DNA of 49,616 nt from a virus: positions 1 through 49,616 of IMG/VR virus record IMGVR_UViG_3300030106_004816. One strand, 5' to 3'. The notes under the pieces were generated by a model. It made no database searches. It had not been told where the DNA came from and saw only the letters and a list, made by a program, of their open reading frames with translations. Below are positions 2 to 25,052 of the stretch, piece by piece. The translations under genes and the position numbers were made by a program. Position 1 is the first letter of the stretch. Each line of letters opens with the position of its first letter.

Positions 2-388
2 GGCCAATCAGGATCTGCAACTACTGAAGCGGGCGGTGGAGACGGAGCAGCATCAAATGTTTCTGGATCTTCTGTTCAATACGGCGGAGGTGGGGGCGGA
101 GGAAATGCTCACCACGGAGCTGGATCAACAACTGCTGGAGCTGGAGGCGGAGGCCGAGGTGGCGGAACATCTCAAAATCCAACTACTGGAACTGACGGCC
201 AAGGCGGTGGCGGTGGCGGTGGCGGAATCGGTACGACAAACCGAGGAGGCGCATCCGGTGGTAATGGAGTTGTTATTATAAGAAGAGAAACAGCTGCATC
301 AGATACGGCAAGTGGAGGAAACTCTACAACAACATCTGGTACGGACACAATCCATACTTTTAACTCATCGGGGACTTACACTGGATAA
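2..388 (+). CDS. C-terminal part of a glycine-rich tail/fibre protein (5' truncated)
   Basis: The open frame runs in from the left edge without a start and ends in TAA that overlaps the next ATG (TAATG). The 128 visible residues are dominated by Gly with Ser, Thr and Ala, including runs of seven Gly. Near the end comes GGNGVVIIRRE, then a Thr/Ser stretch ending HTFNSSGTYTG. This Gly-rich block plus a GxGVVIIR strand and a closing TYT strand is typical of the C-termini of phage tail and fibre proteins with glycine-rich tips. The receptor-binding role is inferred from that family and from the oxygenase cluster and virion genes that follow. The rest of the protein lies outside the window. Confidence 0.7.
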   Translation, partial: GQSGSATTEAGGGDGAASNVSGSSVQYGGGGGGGNAHHGAGSTTAGAGGGGRGGGTSQNPTTGTDGQGGGGGGGGIGTTNRGGASGGNGVVIIRRETAASDTASGGNSTTTSGTDTIHTFNSSGTYTG

Positions 389-849
389 TGGAAACAAGAT
401 ATTTTGCACAATACGATTCTTCAGATAATAAAGTTGAAAGAGTCATGGTTATCGAAACAGCAGATGGAGCATCTGAAGCTGATGGTATAGCTATCTGTAA
501 AGATATTTACGGCAACACTCAAAATTTTGCAGAATGTTTTAAAACAGCTGATGGCACTTCATCTACTAGATACAATTTTCCATCTAAAGGATTTATTTGG
601 GACTCATCTAATAATTGTTTTAGAGCAGAAACAGGTCCATATGCTTCTTGGACTTTAAATACCTCAAATTATCAATGGGAGGCACCTACTCCTGAACCAG
701 CATACCCAGACCCAGATGTTGAAAAATGTATGGATTATAAATGGGATGAACCAAATTTAAGATGGTTAAAAGATCCTAGCTTAGTTGATGGAGACCAAAA
801 CTATACACAATATTGGGATCCAGCTACATCTACTTGGAAAAACATATAA
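388..849 (+). CDS. Small tail-associated protein with aromatic YxW repeats
   Basis: 153 residues, starting METRYFAQYD. The N-terminus has the look of a family common in marine phages (MxRYFAxxD..N.V.RV.V). The second half carries repeated aromatic motifs: FASWTLN-like, YQWEAPTPEP, YKWDEPNLRW and YWDPATSTW. Similar genes often sit directly behind tail-fibre genes, which fits this position. The start overlaps the stop of the glycine-rich gene by one base, so translation is probably coupled. Biochemical function is unknown; a structural or fibre-assembly role is inference. Confidence 0.6.
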   Translation: METRYFAQYDSSDNKVERVMVIETADGASEADGIAICKDIYGNTQNFAECFKTADGTSSTRYNFPSKGFIWDSSNNCFRAETGPYASWTLNTSNYQWEAPTPEPAYPDPDVEKCMDYKWDEPNLRWLKDPSLVDGDQNYTQYWDPATSTWKNI

Positions 850-867: not shown

Positions 868-1497
868 ATGCTATATCCTTACTTATATCTAACAATTCCA
901 AAAGCTTTTTCTAAACTTACCTGTCAGAAAATTATTGAACAAACTAAATTCCATAGTGATAAAGAACAGCAAGCTCAAATAGATTATCATTTAGGAAATA
1001 CAAAACAAACTACTAAAAAAATAAGAGATGCAAAACGCATAAGTTTTACTTGTGACTGGATATATAGAGAGGTAGGAGCGATTGTTGAAAATGTTAATAA
1101 AAAACATTGGAACTTTGATTTACATTGGGTTGAAAATTTAGAATACCTTAAGTATGGTAAAAATGGCCATTTTGATTGGCATGTAGACCAAGCTTTAAAT
1201 CCATATACAATAGAACAAAATCCTAATCCTAATTTTACAAATAGAATTAGAAAATTATCTGTATCTGTACAATTATCAGAGAGCGAAGATTATGAAGGTG
1301 GAAACCTTGAATTAGAAAACCCTTTCTCTGAATCATTAGCCATTGACAAGAAAATTAACACTTTAAACACAGCTCAGGATAGATCAATAGGAACTCTTAT
1401 TATATTTCCTAGTTTTGTTAGACATCGGGTTACTCCCATAAAAAAAGGACTTCGACAATCTTTAGTTTTATGGTATTTAGGAGATAGATACAGATGA
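868..1497 (+). CDS. 2OG-Fe(II) oxygenase, prolyl-4-hydroxylase type (oxygenase 1 of the cassette)
   Basis: 209 residues in the P4H/PKHD-like fold. The Fe(II) facial triad is visible as H105-x-D107 (FDWHVDQ) and H186, with R196 as the expected 2-oxoglutarate carboxylate ligand (RHRVTPIKKGLRQSL). The GGNLEL strand and LIIFPSFVRH strand match the double-stranded beta-helix core. Such enzymes couple 2OG decarboxylation to hydroxylation of a protein, peptide or small-molecule substrate; the substrate here is unknown. It is the first gene of an operon whose genes overlap by 4-11 bases. Its ATG lies only five bases behind a good -10 hexamer, with just a short AGG as possible Shine-Dalgarno. Confidence 0.85.
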   Translation: MLYPYLYLTIPKAFSKLTCQKIIEQTKFHSDKEQQAQIDYHLGNTKQTTKKIRDAKRISFTCDWIYREVGAIVENVNKKHWNFDLHWVENLEYLKYGKNGHFDWHVDQALNPYTIEQNPNPNFTNRIRKLSVSVQLSESEDYEGGNLELENPFSESLAIDKKINTLNTAQDRSIGTLIIFPSFVRHRVTPIKKGLRQSLVLWYLGDRYR

Positions 1498-2102
1498 GAA
1501 CAGTCAAATACGCAAATTGGGGGCCATGGTTAGTTCATATGCAAGTGGAGGACGAATTCATAAATTATTTGGAAACAGAGGCTAAAAAATTAAAACAAAG
1601 TCACGTTAAAAATTTAGCTGGTGAAATTGAAAAAGAACTGCTGTTTACTGATCATACCAAAATAGAAAAGTATTTAAAACCACATATTGATTTTTATTTG
1701 AAAGGTTATAACGAAGTAAGACAACCTAGATACACCCATAGACCTTTACATCAATTAGTAAGTGCTTGGGTAAATTATCAAAAAAAGGGGGAGTACAATC
1801 CAATTCATTTACATGAAAATTGTGATATATCATGGGTGATCTATGTTGATGTTCCAGAAGAAATTTACTCTGAGCCAAAAGTTGGTAATAGATATTCGCC
1901 TGGTGTTGTTTCATTTTATTATGGCGATAGAAATTTTTTAAACGCTAATCAATATCAAGTAAAGCCAAAGGCTGGAGATATGGTAATATTCCCATCTTGG
2001 CTACAACACAGCGTGCAAAAATTTGACTCTGATGTTATTAGAACATCAGTAGCTGGTAATACAAAACTAACTGATACATTTTTAAGGAGATATGTACAAT
2101 GA
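1494..2102 (+). CDS. Putative 2OG-Fe(II) oxygenase (PF13759-like, oxygenase 2)
   Basis: 202 residues. The centre has NPIHLHENCDISWVIYVD (H105, H107) and, after a variable loop, GDMVIFPSWLQHSVQ (H172) with R183 in a RTSVAGN strand. This layout (NPxHxH, then GxMVIFPSxLxH, then RxSxxxN) is that of the 2OG-FeII_Oxy_5 family, abundant in marine phages and cyanobacteria and mostly uncharacterised. It differs from the HxD type encoded by its neighbours. The ATGA start overlaps the previous stop by four bases. Substrate unknown. Confidence 0.75.
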   Translation: MRTVKYANWGPWLVHMQVEDEFINYLETEAKKLKQSHVKNLAGEIEKELLFTDHTKIEKYLKPHIDFYLKGYNEVRQPRYTHRPLHQLVSAWVNYQKKGEYNPIHLHENCDISWVIYVDVPEEIYSEPKVGNRYSPGVVSFYYGDRNFLNANQYQVKPKAGDMVIFPSWLQHSVQKFDSDVIRTSVAGNTKLTDTFLRRYVQ

Positions 2103-2707
2103 TTAAAAAGAGTGATTATTTTTTAAAAGATCATATAGCTGTTATAACTAATGCCTTTCCAATAGATATGATAGATAGATATAAAAAAATGTTGGATACA
2201 GCAATTGACATGGGTTTGTTTTGGGATAGATCTAATGAAGATACTGACCCTCTACAAAAAAAGGACAAAGCTATTGGAGTTGTTAGTGGTATTACGCAAG
2301 GAGTCTTTGAGGAATTAAAATGTCATCCTACAGAAAAAAGATTTTTTGATATATTTTTTAATAAGCATTGGAAATGGTATGCTCAACAATATGAGGTTCT
2401 GCAAACTATTTCTAGACACAGAATCTATGATATGAAGATACAAAAGACTGAACCTTGTGAAGGTTATCATGTTTGGCATCCAGAAGCTGGACATAAAGAA
2501 TGGAGAGATAGAATAGCTGTGTTTTCACTATTTTTAAATACTTTAGAAGAGGGGGGTGAAACAGAATTTTTATATCAAAGCACAAGAGTAAAACCTGTAG
2601 AAAATACTTTAGTTATATTTCCAGCCGGATACACTCATGCTCATAGAGGTAATCCACCCTTGAAGGGCACGAAATACTTACTGACAGGATGGATTGAATG
2701 GGAATAG
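2099..2707 (+). CDS. 2OG-Fe(II) oxygenase, HxE variant (oxygenase 3)
   Basis: 202 residues. The metal-binding region reads GYHVWHPEAG, so the likely first pair is H127-x-E129 rather than HxD. The distal histidine is in FPAGYTHAHRGNPP (H180 or H182), followed by KYLLTGW, where Lys replaces the usual Arg. A GGETEF strand precedes it. This GYHVWHxE...THxHRGNPP form is a recognisable phage/cyanobacterial P4H-like subgroup. It overlaps both neighbours by 4-10 bases, directly upstream of the halogenase. Activity and substrate are not predictable from sequence. Confidence 0.78.
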   Translation: MIKKSDYFLKDHIAVITNAFPIDMIDRYKKMLDTAIDMGLFWDRSNEDTDPLQKKDKAIGVVSGITQGVFEELKCHPTEKRFFDIFFNKHWKWYAQQYEVLQTISRHRIYDMKIQKTEPCEGYHVWHPEAGHKEWRDRIAVFSLFLNTLEEGGETEFLYQSTRVKPVENTLVIFPAGYTHAHRGNPPLKGTKYLLTGWIEWE

Positions 2708-4248
2708 GTTTTGGTAAAATTAAAAATATTACAATAGTAGGAGGAGGCTCAGCTGGATGGATGAGTGCAGCTACTCTATCAAAAGTTTTTCCAGAAAAAA
2801 AAATAACATTAATTGAGTCACCAAATATAAGTACAGTTGGTGTTGGAGAAAGCACGATTGGACAACTTAGACAATGGTGCGCTTTGATTGGTTTAAAGGA
2901 TAGAGAGTTTATACCTTATACAGATGCATCAATAAAATTATCAATAAAATTTACTGACTTTAGTGAGAAAGGCGAAGCATTTCATTATCCGTTTGGTCAA
3001 GGTGATTTAACTGGTAATCATGCGCTGTGGAATGATTGGTGGTTTAAAAAAGCAGCTAATCCTAAATTATCTACTAGTGATTTTGCAGATTGTATGTCAC
3101 CACAAATGGCTCTAGTGAATGCTAATAAATGCACTGACCTTTCTATCGATGGTTTACCTTTTTCTTTTAGTAGAGATACAGCTTTTCATTTTGATGCTAC
3201 TAAATTTGGTTTATGGTTAAGAGACCATATATGTATACCCAATGGTGTAAAGCACATTAAAGAAGAGATTAAGGATATAGAGAGAAATGAAAACGGAATA
3301 GTATCTCTCAACGGTAAACACAAAGCTGATTTGTTTATTGACTGTACTGGTTTCAGATCAAGATTATTAGGAGATACGATGAAGGAACCTTTTGAAAGTT
3401 ATAATGATTTATTACCTAATGATTCCGCATGGGCTACAAGATTAAAGTATAAAAATAAAAAGAAAGAATTAGTAAGCTACACAAATTGTACGGCTTACAA
3501 TAATGGTTGGATATGGAATATTCCTTTATGGTCTAGATTAGGTACAGGATATGTTTTTTCAAGTAAATTTGTAGATGATGAAACAGCATTAAAAGAATTT
3601 AAAAAATATTTAGGACCAAGATCAAATGAAGCAGAGTTTAGAAAAATAAATATGCGTGTGGGCATACATAGAAGACTTTGGGTTAAAAATGTTTGTGCTA
3701 TAGGTTTAGCTGCTGGATTTATTGAGCCATTAGAAAGTAATGGATTATATTCTGTGCATGAATTTTTATATCATTTGTGCAGAGCTCTTAAGAAAGAAAC
3801 ATTAACACAATTTGATAAAGACTGCTTTACTGCAGCTAGTAAAAACAGATTTAAAAACTTTGCTAATTTTGTTGCATTACATTATGCACTTTCAAAGAGA
3901 CACGACACGCCTTATTGGAGAGCAAATGCATCTAAAGAATGGAGCAGTAAATTAGTAGACTTAATACCAGCAATACCTGGAGGGCTTGAAAAAATAGCCT
4001 ACGATAAATATTTCGATTTTGCTTGGGAAGAGATTTCAGGATTACATTATATATGTGCCGGTATGAATTTCGCTCCTACAGATATTGTATCAATACAATA
4101 TGAAAATTTACAATCTGAGACAGATATGTTATTAATGGGTTATAAAGCAATTGGAGATAGATTATCTATGAAAAAAGATATTTGGGCAAAGAATGTAAAA
4201 AAAGTCCCATCACTATATAAATTTTTACAAAGCATACATGATAAGTAA
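2698..4248 (+). CDS. Flavin-dependent halogenase, tryptophan-halogenase family
   Basis: 516 residues, the normal length for this family (PF04820). An FAD-binding GGGSAG is at 15-20 and TVGVGEST at 46-53. The catalytic Lys of RebH/PrnA (K79) aligns with K80 in ASIKLSIKF. The halogenase signature WxWxIP is W271-I-W273-N-I275-P276, followed by SRLGTGYVFSS. The catalytic Glu is E346 in FIEPLESNGLY. The residue after LES is N348 where PrnA/RebH have a chloride-contacting Thr, so halide preference may differ. Such enzymes need FADH2 from a separate reductase, and none is visible here. A cyanophage halogenase of this family (VirX1) has been shown to iodinate many substrates. It lies in the middle of the oxygenase operon. 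Confidence 0.9.
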   Translation: MGIGFGKIKNITIVGGGSAGWMSAATLSKVFPEKKITLIESPNISTVGVGESTIGQLRQWCALIGLKDREFIPYTDASIKLSIKFTDFSEKGEAFHYPFGQGDLTGNHALWNDWWFKKAANPKLSTSDFADCMSPQMALVNANKCTDLSIDGLPFSFSRDTAFHFDATKFGLWLRDHICIPNGVKHIKEEIKDIERNENGIVSLNGKHKADLFIDCTGFRSRLLGDTMKEPFESYNDLLPNDSAWATRLKYKNKKKELVSYTNCTAYNNGWIWNIPLWSRLGTGYVFSSKFVDDETALKEFKKYLGPRSNEAEFRKINMRVGIHRRLWVKNVCAIGLAAGFIEPLESNGLYSVHEFLYHLCRALKKETLTQFDKDCFTAASKNRFKNFANFVALHYALSKRHDTPYWRANASKEWSSKLVDLIPAIPGGLEKIAYDKYFDFAWEEISGLHYICAGMNFAPTDIVSIQYENLQSETDMLLMGYKAIGDRLSMKKDIWAKNVKKVPSLYKFLQSIHDK

Positions 4249-4759
4249 TATTTTTGAAATTAACTGTATTAATATAAATATTATTGACTGGGATAATAAA
4301 AAAAAGAATCTTTTAAAATTATTAGATAATTATCCAGAGGAGTCAAAAGAGTTTTTTCACACTAACAAACATTTACCTAGATCTGGACTTTTACCTGAAT
4401 TTTGTGAAATGTTTGATCCTGAAGTAATTCAAATGCAAAAAGAAACAAAAATGAGAGTACATATTAAAGACGTATGGACTGTAACTTATAAGGAGAATGA
4501 ATTTCATAATCCACATAATCATGGACATCTTGGTTTTAATGGCGTTTTATATTTAGATTATATACGAGAGGAACATAGCCCCACATACTTTGTTTGTCCT
4601 TTTCCTAATGCCATGGATGATAAAAGCATGATGTGTTCCTCTGATGTTTATGAGGGCCAAATACTAGCTGTTCCAGCTTTCCTTACTCATTATACCTCCC
4701 CTAACAAAAGTAAAAAACCTAAAAGAATTTTAGCTTTTGATTTTAATTTAGTTCCATGA
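4238..4759 (+). CDS. Putative 2OG-Fe(II) oxygenase (PF13759-like, oxygenase 4)
   Basis: 173 residues. It has the HxHxH cluster NPHNHGH (H93, H95, H97) followed by GFNGVLYLDY, and then EGQILAVPAFLTHYTSP (H151) with R163 in the last strand. This is the same general plan as oxygenase 2. It overlaps the halogenase stop by 11 bases and the next gene by four, so it is part of the coupled operon. The N-terminal third (about residues 1-70) is not recognisable. Substrate unknown. Confidence 0.7.
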   Translation: MISNIFEINCININIIDWDNKKKNLLKLLDNYPEESKEFFHTNKHLPRSGLLPEFCEMFDPEVIQMQKETKMRVHIKDVWTVTYKENEFHNPHNHGHLGFNGVLYLDYIREEHSPTYFVCPFPNAMDDKSMMCSSDVYEGQILAVPAFLTHYTSPNKSKKPKRILAFDFNLVP

Positions 4760-5316
4760 AAGATGTTTATTATTGGTGGAAAGTTTTTGAAACAACAGAA
4801 ATAAAAGACTTTAACAAAGAGTGTAAAAAATATTTTCAAAAAGGTATTGATAGAAAAGCAGTTGGTGTAACAAAAACAGCTAATGTATTTTATATTAATA
4901 AAAATAAATTTTTACAATCTAAATATAAAGATAAGTTGTACAGAATTTTTCAGATGGTAGATGAAGCTAATAGGAAGGTGTTTGGTTTTAATATCTATGG
5001 TAATCCACATATGTACGATGGAGTATTTAATTACAATGTTTATAACGCAGAACGTGAAGGTACTTATGATTGGCACATTGATGGAAACCTTGTAGAGCAA
5101 AGCGACTTAAAACTTACAGCTTTAATTAATTTAAGTGAACAATCTTATAAGGGAGGTGAATTAAAAATAGTGGGTAGAACTCATTATGAAGTTCCAGAAA
5201 TGAAGCCAGGATACATGATTGTATTTCCAAGTTTTCTAGCACATAAGGTTGAACCTGTAACAGAGGGTGAAAGAATATCCCTTGCTATGTGGTTTTGGGG
5301 TCCACCTTTCGTGTGA
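4756..5316 (+). CDS. 2OG-Fe(II) oxygenase, prolyl-4-hydroxylase type (oxygenase 5)
   Basis: 186 residues with a clear P4H core: YDWHID (H107, D109), KGGELKIVG, GYMIVFPSFLAHKVEPV (H163) and R173 in GERISLAMWFWG. It is a close structural parallel of oxygenase 1 at the start of the operon (DWHxD, VFPSFxxH, GxRxSLxxWxxG), which suggests gene duplication inside the cassette. Its stop is directly followed by an extended -10 element serving the next virion gene, so the operon probably ends here. Confidence 0.85.
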   Translation: MKDVYYWWKVFETTEIKDFNKECKKYFQKGIDRKAVGVTKTANVFYINKNKFLQSKYKDKLYRIFQMVDEANRKVFGFNIYGNPHMYDGVFNYNVYNAEREGTYDWHIDGNLVEQSDLKLTALINLSEQSYKGGELKIVGRTHYEVPEMKPGYMIVFPSFLAHKVEPVTEGERISLAMWFWGPPFV

Positions 5317-5328: not shown

Positions 5329-7503
5329 ATGACATTAAGAAAAATACCATTTGCACCAGGATTTAATAAACAAGCCACTGCCACTCAAGCAGAGGGTCAA
5401 TGGCAAGATGGAGATAATGTTCGTTTTAGATACGGAAGTCCAGAAAAGATTGGCGGATGGTCACAAAGAACTACTAGTGAATTAGCAGGAGTGGGTAGAC
5501 AAATCCACTCTTTCAGTGATCTTAATGGTGTAAAGTATGTAGCCATTGGAACAAGTAAAATTTTAGGACTAGAAACTGGTGGTAAATTTTATGATATTAC
5601 TCCTTTAGACACTTCTATAACTAGTGCAACTTTTTCGTCGTCCAATGGATCTGCTACTGTTACTATTAACAAAGCTTCACATAATTTAGAGGATGGAAGA
5701 TTAGTTATTTTTTCTAGTGTTACATTACCTGGTGGAGGAGCCACTGGTTACACAGCTTCAGATTTTACTACTAACACTTTTGAAATTTCAAACTCACAAT
5801 CTGATTCTTTTCAAATTACAATGCTTTCCAATGAAAGTGGCACAGGCATGTCATCAGCTGGTAGTGTGACCATTCAACCTTATATATTTATTGGTCCAAG
5901 TTTTCAAACACCCGCATACGGTTGGGGTACTGGAACGTATGGAGGACGAATTAATACTGCTGTAACAAACACTCTTAACGGTCTGTTACAAGATGATACT
6001 GCTGGAACAGGAGGGTCTGGAACCTCTGTTACTCTTACAGACGCCACAGCTTTTCCTAGCGCTGGAACAATACAAGTTGGTGATGAATTAATATCTTACA
6101 CTGCTAAAGCTGGAAATGATTTACAAAATATAACTAGAGGCGCTGAAGGGTCTACTAGGTCTGCACACAGCACTAGCACCTTAGTCAGAGACACAACTAA
6201 TTTTATGGCATGGAATGAACCTAGCTCAGCTTCGGAAGTGAATTTAAGTCCAGGCCAATGGTCTTTAGATAATTTTGGACAAATACTAATTGGCACGATA
6301 AAAGATGGTAAATCATTTAATTGGGATCCGTCAGTTACACTTGCATTATCCACAAGAGCCACAATAATCACAAATGCCCCAACATCCACAGTAAAGACAT
6401 TGGTTTCAGATAGAGATAGGCATCTAATATTTTTAGGCACAGAAACTACAATTGGCAGTGTTAGCACACAAGATAAAATGTTTATAAGATTTTCTAGCCA
6501 AGAGGATAGAAATACTTATGCACCAACATCTACTAACACAGCTGGAACTTTTCAATTAGATCAAGGAACGCAAATAATTGGAGGTGTCCAAGCTAAAGAT
6601 TATACATTAATTTTAACAGATAGAGCAGCATACATAATGCAGTTCGTAGGTCCTCCTTTTACTTTTTCTATAAAACAGGTTGGCTCTGATTGTGGACTTA
6701 TGAGCATGAATGCGATTGTGTATTCAAACGGAGCTGTATTCTGGATGGCTAACAGTGGAGGTTTTTATGTATTTGATGGTACTGTTAAATCATTACCTTG
6801 TTCTGTAGAAGATTTTGTTTTCGACACCCAATCTGGAGATCTGGGTATTAACATAGAATCTGGTGGTGATTTAATTTACGCTGGACATAATAGTTTATTT
6901 CAAGAAGTTTCATGGTTTTATCCTAAATCCGGATCTTCTCAAGTAGATAGAGTTGTAACTTATAATTACGCAGAAAATGTTTGGACCACTGGATCTTTAG
7001 CAAGAACTTCATGGATATCAGCAGGAGTAACAACTTTACCATTAGCAACAGAATTTTTAGAAAGCAGAACTCCAAATTTTCCTACAATAAATGGAGTGAC
7101 TGCTGGATCCACTGTATTGTATGAACATGAAACAGGAACGAATCAAGTTAGATCTTTTACTACTGGCACTGTAACTTCTGCCATATCATCATCTATAAGT
7201 TCTGGAGATTTTGATTTAGATGTTGATGGTGATGGAGAATATTTTATTAGTATGTCTAGATTTATTCCAGACTTTAAATATTTAAATAGCACTTGTAATG
7301 TAACAATAAATTTAAGACGATTCCCTAATGATACTAATGCTTCATCGCCATTAGGGCCTTTTACAATCAGCAATAGCACTGATCAAGTTAATACAAGAGC
7401 AAGAAGTAGGTTGGCAAGCATAGAAATTTCTGCTACACAGGTATCTAACAACTGGCGTTATGGCTTATTTAGGTTTGACTCAAAACAAGATGGTAGAAGA
7501 TAA
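5329..7503 (+). CDS. Tail/neck stabilisation-like virion protein
   Basis: 724 residues. The N-terminus (PFAPGFNKQATATQAEGQWQDGDNVRFR, then SPEKIGGW) is the hallmark of a widespread podovirus structural family. In it a PGxNxxxTxxxxEGxWxDxDxVRFRxGxPEKIGGW segment starts a large beta-rich tail or head-completion protein, comparable in position to P22 gp10-like stabilisation proteins. The remainder is rich in Ser, Thr, Gly and Asn, as expected for a beta-propeller or beta-helix virion protein. It appears to have its own promoter just after the oxygenase operon. Exact position in the virion is inference. Confidence 0.7.
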   Translation: MTLRKIPFAPGFNKQATATQAEGQWQDGDNVRFRYGSPEKIGGWSQRTTSELAGVGRQIHSFSDLNGVKYVAIGTSKILGLETGGKFYDITPLDTSITSATFSSSNGSATVTINKASHNLEDGRLVIFSSVTLPGGGATGYTASDFTTNTFEISNSQSDSFQITMLSNESGTGMSSAGSVTIQPYIFIGPSFQTPAYGWGTGTYGGRINTAVTNTLNGLLQDDTAGTGGSGTSVTLTDATAFPSAGTIQVGDELISYTAKAGNDLQNITRGAEGSTRSAHSTSTLVRDTTNFMAWNEPSSASEVNLSPGQWSLDNFGQILIGTIKDGKSFNWDPSVTLALSTRATIITNAPTSTVKTLVSDRDRHLIFLGTETTIGSVSTQDKMFIRFSSQEDRNTYAPTSTNTAGTFQLDQGTQIIGGVQAKDYTLILTDRAAYIMQFVGPPFTFSIKQVGSDCGLMSMNAIVYSNGAVFWMANSGGFYVFDGTVKSLPCSVEDFVFDTQSGDLGINIESGGDLIYAGHNSLFQEVSWFYPKSGSSQVDRVVTYNYAENVWTTGSLARTSWISAGVTTLPLATEFLESRTPNFPTINGVTAGSTVLYEHETGTNQVRSFTTGTVTSAISSSISSGDFDLDVDGDGEYFISMSRFIPDFKYLNSTCNVTINLRRFPNDTNASSPLGPFTISNSTDQVNTRARSRLASIEISATQVSNNWRYGLFRFDSKQDGRR

Positions 7504-7966
7504 AGTACGTCTTTACAAAGGCTACATTAAATCAGATGATTTTGATTTTAATTTGTTAGCTGAAGTCATAGATACTGTTAACGATAATTCTGTTATTTCA
7601 AGCAATCATATGTATGAAAAAATATTGGAGTCTTGTTTCCAACTTAAAGGAGCGCATGTACATCCTTTCTTTCATAACATATGGAATAATTTAGAAAGAG
7701 TGCATAACGCAAATGGGCAAAAAAATTCATCAATAGATATTTTCTTTAGTTTTTGTAGTGGCGGAAGAAGTATAGCTCATGCTGATTTTGAAGATGTTTG
7801 TATATTTGGTTTATATGGAAAAACAGTTTACTTAATTAATAATAAGGAATATAATATGGTTAAAGGGGATTTATTGTTTATACCAAAAAACACAATACAC
7901 AGAGGTATAGGCATAACTCCTAGAATTGTAGGATCTTACGGAACATGGCCATTAAACAAAAAATAA
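7490..7966 (+). CDS. Cupin-like Fe(II) protein, possible JmjC-type oxygenase
   Basis: About 158 residues from the ATG at 7490, which overlaps the preceding stop by 14 bases; an in-frame start at 7460 would overlap more. The C-terminal half has a cupin core: SIAHADFEDVCIFGLYG (HxDxED), VKGDLLFIPKNTIHRG and a final PRIVGSYG strand. Metal binding by the HAD and IHR histidines is likely. Cupins of this form may be 2OG hydroxylases or non-catalytic sugar/lipid-binding proteins. It is one more oxygenase-like gene inserted between virion genes. Confidence 0.6.
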   Translation: MVEDKVRLYKGYIKSDDFDFNLLAEVIDTVNDNSVISSNHMYEKILESCFQLKGAHVHPFFHNIWNNLERVHNANGQKNSSIDIFFSFCSGGRSIAHADFEDVCIFGLYGKTVYLINNKEYNMVKGDLLFIPKNTIHRGIGITPRIVGSYGTWPLNKK

Positions 7967-8402: not shown

Positions 8403-8749
8403 GTATACAATATAAAAATCAAGGATATAAACAATCAAGCACAGGTAAAACTACAGTTCTCACATGCCCTACTAATGCTACTATAATTATTAAAAGTATT
8501 TATGTTGCAAACAACGATGCTTCGTCAGCTATTTTGGTCAACATGAATTTAGTTGATTCTTCTGATTCAAGTGCTGAGTACGAATTTTTTAGAGATGACG
8601 TCCCAGCAAAATCACAGGTAAATGCATCTGCACAGGGATTAAACTTAGAGGCGGGTGACTCAGTTACAGTGACAGCTGCTACAGGCAGTAACACAATACA
8701 AGGTGCAATAAGTTACGCTTTAATTGATAGATCACAAGAAAACGGTTAA
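8399..8749 (+). CDS. Virion structural protein (small beta-sandwich type)
   Basis: 116 residues, MSIQYKNQGYKQSSTGKTTVLTCPTNATIIIKSIYVAN at the start, then alternating strands and LNLEAGDSVTVTAATG. This is a recognisable small marine phage tail/virion family in which TTxLxTxPxxxxxIIKSIYVAN and LNLEAGDxxxxxA mark the fold. Both ends overlap neighbours by one to four bases. The next gene is an oxygenase, and the product could be one of its substrates; that is speculation. Confidence 0.6.
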   Translation: MSIQYKNQGYKQSSTGKTTVLTCPTNATIIIKSIYVANNDASSAILVNMNLVDSSDSSAEYEFFRDDVPAKSQVNASAQGLNLEAGDSVTVTAATGSNTIQGAISYALIDRSQENG

Positions 8750-9261
8750 TGCTACACGTTTACGATAATAAAATTCATCCTAACAATGAAAAAAGAATAG
8801 AGAGTCTTATACTTAAAAAAAAGTTTATTAGTGGTGAAAGAGACCATCCTGCTTTACCACCTACAGGTCAAACCTGTGAATTAAGTTTAGATGTAGATGA
8901 AGATGGAATACCAAAAGAAGAAATACTACAATTAATACAACAAGATCTTAAAGGCCAAGAGTTTGAAAAACTAAAATCATTAAAACTTAAAAGGGCCTAC
9001 ATTAATAAGTTTGTTCCAGAAGATAAACCATATTTTCATCAAGACTCAGACGCAATATACACAGTTTTATATTATTCATCATTAGCTTATAAAGATTTAA
9101 ATGAATTAGGTTTTACTGAATTTTTTTATGGAGCTAGTATAAATGGTATATTACCCATGCCAGGAAGAATAGTAATTTTCAAAGGAGATATTTATCATAG
9201 AGCTACTTCGTGTAGGACTTTAACAAGACACACGGTTGCGTTAAAGTATAACTATGGCTAA
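8749..9261 (+). CDS. 2OG-Fe(II) oxygenase, P4H type (outside the main cassette)
   Basis: 170 residues. The active site is YFHQDSD (H97, D99), MPGRIVIFKGDIYHRATS (H150) and R160 in TRHTVALKY. The central strand GFTEFFYG replaces the usual GGxT/E strand. This P4Hc-like form is common in marine phages. It sits between two small virion genes with a one-base start/stop overlap, so it is co-expressed with structural proteins. Substrate unknown. Confidence 0.82.
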   Translation: MLHVYDNKIHPNNEKRIESLILKKKFISGERDHPALPPTGQTCELSLDVDEDGIPKEEILQLIQQDLKGQEFEKLKSLKLKRAYINKFVPEDKPYFHQDSDAIYTVLYYSSLAYKDLNELGFTEFFYGASINGILPMPGRIVIFKGDIYHRATSCRTLTRHTVALKYNYG

Positions 9262-24203: not shown

Positions 24204-24429
24204 TACAGATTTATTTAAAAATGTTTTTCCACAAGATAAAGGGCCTAAACACTATAAGGTTTATAAAATACAGCCCTATGAATTTATTTCTAAAAACAAT
24301 CTTTCATTCTTCCAAGGCTGTGTTGTGAAATACGCTTGTAGGTATTTGATGAAGGATAAAGTTAAAGACTTAAAAAAAATTATACACTATTGTGAGTTGG
24401 AAATAAAAAAACTGGAGGATACTAAATGA
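24181..24429 (+). CDS. DUF3310 family protein
   Basis: 82 residues. The pattern HYKVYKIQPYEFISKNNLSFFQGCVVKYACRYLMKDKVKDLKKIIHYCEL fits DUF3310 (SaV-like) proteins, which carry HYK.I.P.EFI..N.L.F..G..VKY..RY..K....DLKKA.HY. They are common in phage nucleotide and replication modules; no proven function. The ATG lies inside the end of the helicase gene. Confidence 0.78.
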   Translation: MSKKTMTDTDLFKNVFPQDKGPKHYKVYKIQPYEFISKNNLSFFQGCVVKYACRYLMKDKVKDLKKIIHYCELEIKKLEDTK

Positions 24430-25052
24430 GCTCAGAAATATTACAGGTGTTCCCTCAACCAGTGATGATCTTCAATGACATGATCAAATTAACAAAAGCA
24501 GAAAAAGATTATTTAAATAAGGATCAAGAAATGCAAGATAGGATTGGAGTATCCGGAGTACAATGCACTGCAGATTATTATCTTCTTAATAAAAAAGAAT
24601 TATTGAATGTAAAAAATCAAATTCAAAATTGCGTAGATATTTATGCTGAAAAAGTTATGAAGTTAAATAGAGCTTTTCAAAATATATTTATAACAACCTC
24701 ATGGATGAATGTTAACAAGCCAGGTAAAAATCATCATCCACATACACATCCTAATAGTATTTTAAGCGGTGTAGTTTACGTTAGCGAAAACCCACAACAT
24801 CATACAACAGTTTTTTTAAATACTGCAAAGCCCATGGAGTTTTCTTATACAGAATACAACTGGTTTAATTCTTCAGCTATTACTTTAAAAGCAAAGTATT
24901 TAGGATGCATTATATTTCCATCCACTCTTAATCATTTAGCTGAAACCAATACTACGAAAGATATAAGAAAGAGTTTAACATTTAACACATTCATTAATGG
25001 TACATTTGGTGGCGATAATCTTTGTTCATTAAAAATAGGACATGTAACATGA
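24426..25052 (+). CDS. Putative 2OG-Fe(II) oxygenase (PF13759-like) in the replication module
   Basis: 208 residues. The core is NKPGKNHHPHTHPNSILSGVVYVS (H104, H106, H108), then LGCIIFPSTLNHLAETN (H170) and R181 in RKSLTFNTF. This is the standard 2OG-FeII_Oxy_5 pattern, cleaner than in the two members of the 868-5316 operon. It overlaps DUF3310 by four bases and is followed by a tiny membrane peptide and a second oxygenase, immediately before polA. Confidence 0.8.
   Translation: MSSEILQVFPQPVMIFNDMIKLTKAEKDYLNKDQEMQDRIGVSGVQCTADYYLLNKKELLNVKNQIQNCVDIYAEKVMKLNRAFQNIFITTSWMNVNKPGKNHHPHTHPNSILSGVVYVSENPQHHTTVFLNTAKPMEFSYTEYNWFNSSAITLKAKYLGCIIFPSTLNHLAETNTTKDIRKSLTFNTFINGTFGGDNLCSLKIGHVT

Follow-up and report, generated by a model that had tools for sequence, protein, structure and literature searches.

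A block of six overlapping genes in the IMG/VR virus record IMGVR_UViG_3300030106_004816, a 49,616-nt stretch analyzed here as a whole and called the window, encodes a VirX1-like flavin-dependent halogenase and five proteins, A to E, of the 2-oxoglutarate (2OG)-Fe(II) oxygenase type. Our main finding is that the block is one version of a variable enzyme island that lies beside a glycine-rich tail-tip gene (GLY), that the same association recurs in an unrelated phage group, and that, by the evidence of synonymous divergence, block and tip have passed together between two otherwise diverged phages. The explanation we favor, and to which we give about an even chance, is a modular tailoring island with optional modules that would hydroxylate and halogenate the tip adhesin or its fiber. 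A sequence-only reading of this DNA had offered a virion part, a host protein, a peptide, or a metabolite as targets; we favor the virion part, the island being tied to the glycine-rich tip in each of two unrelated groups of phages, and we keep the others as rivals. Taken as a whole, the observation behind that reading was real in part, and its interpretation is partly supported. In its large terminase the virus shares 83% identity with Pelagibacter phage HTVC023P and 61% with HTVC027P, and the virion structural protein (VSP) downstream of the block is 54% and 53% identical to its counterparts; on the terminase identities and the shared VSP, the source is classified by sequence as an HTVC023P-type podovirus of SAR11, the commonest bacteria of the ocean.

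All six genes run in the same direction, and the PHROGs assignments agree with those of Pfam (Table 1). The overlapping six-gene arrangement described earlier is borne out, with the open reading frames confirmed and consecutive overlaps of 4, 4, 10, 11, and 4 bases in the order A, B, C, halogenase, D, E. A promoter of its own, also claimed for the block, was rejected: only 18 bases separate A from the gene before it, and promoter-like matches stand at chance level, with 43 found versus 42.7 ± 6.9 expected. The best PDB match of the halogenase is VirX1 (6qgm, 8e-104), and in the alignment to VirX1 the GxGxxG motif, the catalytic Lys, WIWNIP (WxWxIP), and the PLES glutamate are all kept; by the PF04820 profile and these motifs it is classed as a flavin-dependent halogenase of the tryptophan type, with halogenation its predicted activity. 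Oxygenases A (H105/D107/H186/R196), C (H127/E129/H182/K192), and E (H107/D109/H163/R173) keep the H-x-D/E...H...R/K pattern, and the PDB relatives of E are hydroxylases of the PKHD type. B and D both score above the PF13759 cut-off of 27 bits (72.1 and 28.4 bits, respectively), and the PDB relatives of B are weak and uncharacterized (2rg4 and 3bvc). The 2-His-1-carboxylate site (HxD/E...H) was sought in B and D and is not there, its place being taken by H-x-H...H (H105/H107/H172 in B, with R183; H93/H95/H151 in D). Hence, the claim that catalytic residues are intact in all six genes holds for the halogenase, A, C, and E, but not for B and D, which are without the classical acid ligand. Since H-x-H...H is conserved at 99% in 163 PF13759-type relatives, it is a family trait and not decay. 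The label 2OG-Fe(II) oxygenase is thus safe for A, C, and E and putative, as is cofactor use, for B and D. For a family that bears this name, H-x-H...H across the whole PF13759-type set is unusual as a metal site.

Table 1. Genes of the block, its tail-gene borders, and other oxygenase-like genes of the window
Feature	Position	Strand	Match or remark
GLY, glycine-rich tail-tip protein, C-terminal part	2..388	+	5' end before window start
g388, Trp-rich small partner of GLY	388..849	+	phrog_7759 3.5e-14
Oxygenase A, prolyl 4-hydroxylase (P4H)-type 2OG-Fe(II) oxygenase	868..1497	+	PF13640 6.2e-11; phrog_61 1.1e-30
Oxygenase B, PF13759-type putative 2OG-Fe(II) oxygenase, HxH...H site	1494..2102	+	PF13759 5.5e-20
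Oxygenase C, HxE-type 2OG-Fe(II) oxygenase	2099..2707	+	PF13640 2.3e-10; phrog_61 1.7e-35
Flavin-dependent halogenase, VirX1-like	2698..4248	+	PF04820 8.9e-110; phrog_2928 3e-147
Oxygenase D, PF13759-type putative 2OG-Fe(II) oxygenase, HxH...H site	4238..4759	+	PF13759 2.3e-6; phrog_81 1.2e-24
Oxygenase E, P4H-type 2OG-Fe(II) oxygenase	4756..5316	+	PF13640 2.2e-14
VSP, P22 gp10-like "stabilization/needle"	5329..7503	+	phrog_3287 1.2e-87
Cupin/JmjC-like protein, outside slot	7460..7966	+	phrog_4992 1.3e-9; below cut-off, Cupin_2 4e-4 and JmjC_2 3e-3
phrog_274 protein, outside slot	8749..9261	+	phrog_274 1.3e-15; phrog_81 0.004; HQD...H...R pattern
Lone PF13759/phrog_81-type oxygenase	24426..25052		Flanked by helicase and DNA polymerase genes; outside tail slot

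Across the IMG/VR loci, the slot has a constant order of tail fiber, GLY, g388, variable enzymes, and VSP, within which the number and order of the enzymes change. Loci fetched with the tail fiber as bait were not selected for a halogenase, the bait coming from a glycine-rich-type phage and the sample thus being biased to that tip type; GLY is the gene next to the tail fiber in 72 of 75. Every complete slot in this set (36 of 36) holds oxygenases, from 1 to 9 with a median of 6, a halogenase is present in 10, and 88% of the non-tip genes are oxygenases, halogenases, or cupins. Slots with other fiber types were supplied by a second sample, anchored on VSP, where the glycine-rich slots have a median of 4 oxygenases (n = 52) versus 1 for the other types (n = 24; Mann-Whitney p = 1e-7), and no halogenase occurs in any of those 24. 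Oxygenase number does not change with the presence of a halogenase (4.3 with one and 4.3 without), which makes the halogenase an optional addition to an oxygenase island; an oxygenase stands within three genes of it in 35 of 36 non-redundant halogenase loci. The block had been taken for a fixed six-gene pathway, and this did not survive the comparison: the exact order was found in only one of these 36 loci, contig L001, a relative sharing the enzyme block, while the slot itself is strongly conserved. Two further enzyme families were seen in the relatives. A sulfotransferase (PF13469), another possible protein-decorating enzyme, lies inside the slot in seven loci (L021:6830-7564 and six relatives). 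The family named "ferrochelatase," phrog_2954 (for example L010:11130-11831, L247:8295-8915, and L249:10057-10713), has an H-x-D-R...H...R pattern with H108, D110, and H161 conserved at 98-99% in 119 relatives; it looks like another oxygenase, and no solved relative of the family was found.

The same neighborhood is seen in T4-like cyanomyoviruses, where glycine-rich tip genes are followed by a VirX1-like halogenase and then by several 2OG oxygenases. In 9 of the 10 sampled cyanomyoviruses with such a halogenase (Syn10, Sf-CH11, S-RIM44, Sf-FP1, S-CREM1, P-RSM6, P-TIM40, S-WAM1, and S-SZBM1), the distance to a PF21722 tip gene is 471-1305 bp, a proximity that random placement matches in 1.5-7% of draws per genome.

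Comparison of the window with L001 indicates that tip and enzymes have moved as one piece. DNA identity is about 99% through the tip (99% over the GLY stretch at 2..388) and the enzymes, with 92-93% over part of g388, and falls to 71-89% in VSP and beyond. Synonymous divergence (dS) is 0.04-0.13 in the six genes and 0.19 in g388, against 0.8-1.15 in VSP, the gene at 8749-9261, and the glycosyltransferase gene downstream. From the low dS of the block and the high dS of its flank, we infer that tip and enzymes travelled together between otherwise diverged phages; that the block is a single sequence assembled twice is discounted because the differences are scattered and synonymous. The ratio of nonsynonymous to synonymous divergence (dN/dS) is 0-0.15 in all six genes, and oxygenase C and the halogenase have no nonsynonymous change against 6 and 12 synonymous ones, respectively. 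To judge from these comparisons, the block is under purifying selection and was exchanged between two phages together with the tail tip. The idea of a compact, co-inherited tailoring unit is therefore supported, by the gene overlaps, the purifying selection, and the exchange as one block. On a longer time scale, slots with similar g388 proteins also tend to have similar enzyme sets once both flanking genes are corrected for (partial Mantel r = 0.25, p = 0.002).

The block had been placed between tail genes, and this needs correction: upstream are the glycine-rich tail-tip gene and its partner g388, and downstream is a P22 gp10-like protein. The upstream order, read from L001, is tail proteins, a Trp-rich repeat protein, the tail fiber, GLY (PF21722), and g388. 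The Trp-rich repeat protein, a virion protein with repeats like GWGRxxWxxxxWG (L001:4026-5531), stands just upstream of the tail fiber in nearly all these phages. The right-hand border of the slot is VSP, which has annotated relatives in Pelagibacter phages, Roseobacter phages, and cyanophages. A full-length GLY relative (L001:6771-7691) matches PF21722 at 3.7e-8, and the AF2 model of GLY (pLDDT 86) aligns by VIA-align with the Bxb1 tail tip (Z 12.3, 170 residues, 3.6 Å) and with the fiber gp24 of cyanophage Pam3 (7YPX; Z 11.7, 171 residues, 3.0 Å); Foldseek alone gave a weak match (E 0.05). By sequence profile and modeled fold, then, GLY is a glycine-rich tail-tip adhesin of the Pam3 gp24 type, presumed here to be the receptor-binding tip and the proposed substrate of the enzymes. 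Salmonella phage S16 gp38 was grouped with Pam3 gp24 and gp25 as a comparison system, and no direct match to it was seen among the structural matches listed for the GLY model. By tblastn, GLY was unmatched in annotated phages, likely owing to low-complexity filtering. The partner g388 accompanies GLY in nearly all slots. For its 81 N-terminal residues, the top VIA-align row is the Pam3 chaperone gp25 (chain 7ypx_a), weak at Z 4.7 over 57 residues, and 5yvq_B is weak as well (Z 2.9). Foldseek found nothing for g388 below E 0.3 in the PDB and only uncharacterized phage proteins in a viral library, and there is no sequence match to the Tfa-type tail-fiber chaperones Pam3 gp25 and Mu Tfa. These alignments are suggestive, and g388 is possibly a Tfa-like chaperone. 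In the Pam3 fiber, the glycine-rich domain carries a hypervariable distal tip proposed to recognize receptors, the fiber protein being folded by chaperone gp25, and the available portions of the Pam3 and S16 sources mention no oxygenase or halogenase partner (PMC9608196).

The hydroxylases, the halogenase, and the sulfotransferase of some relatives are decorating enzymes, and the scan of slot genes turned up no enzyme that builds a scaffold. Decoration of the tip or fiber is the likeliest role for the island. Under this explanation, the enzymes would be produced late in infection, together with the tip and g388. Glycine-rich repeat proteins are the classical substrates of P4H-type enzymes, and here the P4H-like and PF13759-like oxygenases would hydroxylate side chains of the tip or of its supporting fiber. 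The halogenase, dependent on reduced flavin adenine dinucleotide (FADH2) and taking reduced flavin from the host, would halogenate aromatic or histidine side chains of the same proteins, and modification would come before or during chaperone-assisted folding. With enzymes swapped in and out among phages, tip chemistry could change faster than the tip backbone, the likely benefits being a changed receptor specificity, a way around variation in the receptor, or a more robust adhesin.

Several observations weigh against the proposed decoration of the tip. The tip of L001 has no Trp, which leaves a halogenase strictly specific for Trp without a target there; if the halogenase works on the tip it would have to use Tyr or His, and otherwise its target would be the Trp-rich repeat protein, the fiber, or g388. 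A Trp target in the tip was accordingly rejected, the Trp content of tips with and without a halogenase not differing significantly, and the repeat protein found no support as a target, being equally Trp-rich in phages without the halogenase. Tip composition showed no clear difference with halogenase presence or oxygenase number, the few nominal p-values among 30 tests being unconvincing. Similar oxygenases occur elsewhere in these genomes, as at 24426-25052 of the window. Enzyme-set similarity is uncorrelated with GLY similarity (p = 0.65), for which glycine-rich bit scores are a noisy measure, and the correlation with g388 may be a product of physical linkage, given that VSP is correlated too (p = 0.024). 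As for the cyanomyoviruses, the VirX1-like halogenase of S-B64 is far from any tip gene, the more distant phage halogenases of P-SSM2 and S-MbCM6 are without tip linkage, and the nine linked cases share ancestry and so are not independent, in a group separate from the SAR11 podoviruses.

Bacterial 2OG oxygenases are able to hydroxylate host proteins, and one competing explanation is that the enzymes modify a host protein or surface molecule (a ribosomal protein, a transporter, or a receptor) for takeover or to block superinfection, the tail position being a late-transcribed recombination hot spot. The hypervariable, mosaic character of the slots and the related oxygenases found outside them would fit this explanation. 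However, a neutral hot spot should gather varied cargo, which is not what the makeup of the non-tip slot genes shows, and the enrichment differs between types of tip and is found again in unrelated phages; we consider a host target unlikely, though worth keeping in mind. An improbable account, in our judgment, is that the cassette makes or decorates a halogenated, hydroxylated small molecule or peptide released in or from the infected cell. A halogenated amino-acid or sugar metabolite has been predicted for the jumbo-cyanophage cluster of a halogenase and several 2OG enzymes (PMC7824862), an antibiotic role for the halogenase is among the suggestions of the S-CREM1 authors (PMC9964418), and VirX1 accepts many small aromatics in vitro (PMC8407142). 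Against it, the carbamoyltransferase, methylase, and sugar genes of the jumbo cluster are absent from the six-gene block and belong to phages with a halogenase only 27-29% identical. Moreover, with its genes overlapping, the block has no space for a precursor-peptide gene, and a search limited to 868-5316 found no precursor gene for a ribosomally synthesized and post-translationally modified peptide.

DNA repair or 2OG/NtcA roles have been proposed for phage 2OG oxygenases (PMC3037559, PMC9146016), and the enzymes here might by extension act on nucleic acid, in repair or modification, or tune 2OG signaling, with the halogenase as a passenger. This we hold to be highly improbable given the linkage to tail-tip genes, the 1-9 divergent copies per slot, the lack of any AlkB-type match in the profile searches, and the consideration that drawing down 2OG would take no more than a single enzyme. 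There is only the slimmest chance that the slot is a trap in which oxygenase genes of little function accumulate, selfish or decaying: gene order and number do turn over highly, but the low dN/dS of all six genes, the lack of nonsynonymous change in C and the halogenase, and the 98-100% conservation of metal-site residues speak against it.

The sequence-only reading held that no such combination had been described, and this was mistaken. Jumbo cyanophages (S-SSM6a and P-SSM2) have a predicted cluster of a halogenase with several 2OG enzymes, proposed to decorate a metabolite or the capsule (PMC7824862); its carbamoyltransferases, methylase, and sugar enzymes set it apart from our block, and the carbamoyltransferase and HemK-like methylase were absent from the block and from the neighbors scanned. 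S-CREM1 has tail genes, a collagen-like tip protein, a halogenase, and then eight annotated 2OG oxygenases, in the different gene order of a T4-like cyanomyovirus; its authors put forward antibiotic protection, DNA repair, protein modification, or lipid metabolism as roles, and the available part of the report draws no connection to the tail tip (PMC9964418). More generally, cyanophage halogenases and 2OG genes have been interpreted as serving antibiotic production, DNA repair, 2OG signaling, or metabolism (PMC3037559, PMC9964418, PMC9146016). The closest solved relative of our halogenase, VirX1 of Syn10, aligns in all catalytic motifs and likewise has its gene beside glycine-rich tip genes and 2OG oxygenases, in another phage group and host and at about 41% identity over the Syn10 genes. 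The tests of VirX1 have used small molecules, and the review consulted names no native substrate (PMC8407142). In the same phage group as the window, a 2OG oxygenase and a "ferrochelatase" were reported as auxiliary metabolic genes of HTVC023P-type pelagiphages (PMC9599517); these include co-located, non-orthologous 2OG oxygenases, which that paper treats as metabolic, with no mention of halogenase or tail fibers, and the published pairing may be one oxygenase beside another. Our search for literature on hydroxylated tail fibers, of partial coverage, found nothing. Chlorovirus PBCV-1, a eukaryotic algal virus with a single P4H-type enzyme and, to our knowledge, no halogenase, offers a viral comparison. 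That prolyl 4-hydroxylase is active, and viral proteins show evidence of containing hydroxyproline (Eriksson 1999, as cited in PMC9301287).

Already known, then, are the cyanophage halogenase-plus-oxygenase clusters, annotated earlier without a tail link; new, within a partial coverage of the literature, are a halogenase island in pelagiphages, its tie to the tip in both groups of phages, the transfer of block and tip together, and the substrate proposed. The role of many marine-phage 2OG oxygenases has so far been guessed at as DNA repair, 2OG signaling, or general metabolism. Tying them and VirX1 to the virion tip would turn two loose questions into one prediction, testable on cultured HTVC023P, Syn10, and S-CREM1, would provide viral halogenases and many phage oxygenases with a function open to experiment, and would reveal a further level at which phages vary the recognition of their hosts. 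That abundant marine phages use interchangeable hydroxylases and halogenases to alter their own receptor-binding tips, as a combinatorial post-translational route to host-range change that can be swapped genetically and as the native role of viral halogenases like VirX1, is a tentative extension to which we give somewhat less than an even chance.

Downstream of VSP, the product of 7460-7966 is a possible further oxygenase and that of 8749-9261 a probable one, to go by their profile matches and motifs. The latter belongs to phrog_274, named "DNA endonuclease V," which includes oxygenase-like H-x-D...H proteins (also L035:6903-7457) for which that label looks wrong. A glycosyltransferase (PF00534; 9588-10550 in the window) follows VSP in many relatives and is possibly another enzyme that modifies the virion or the host surface.

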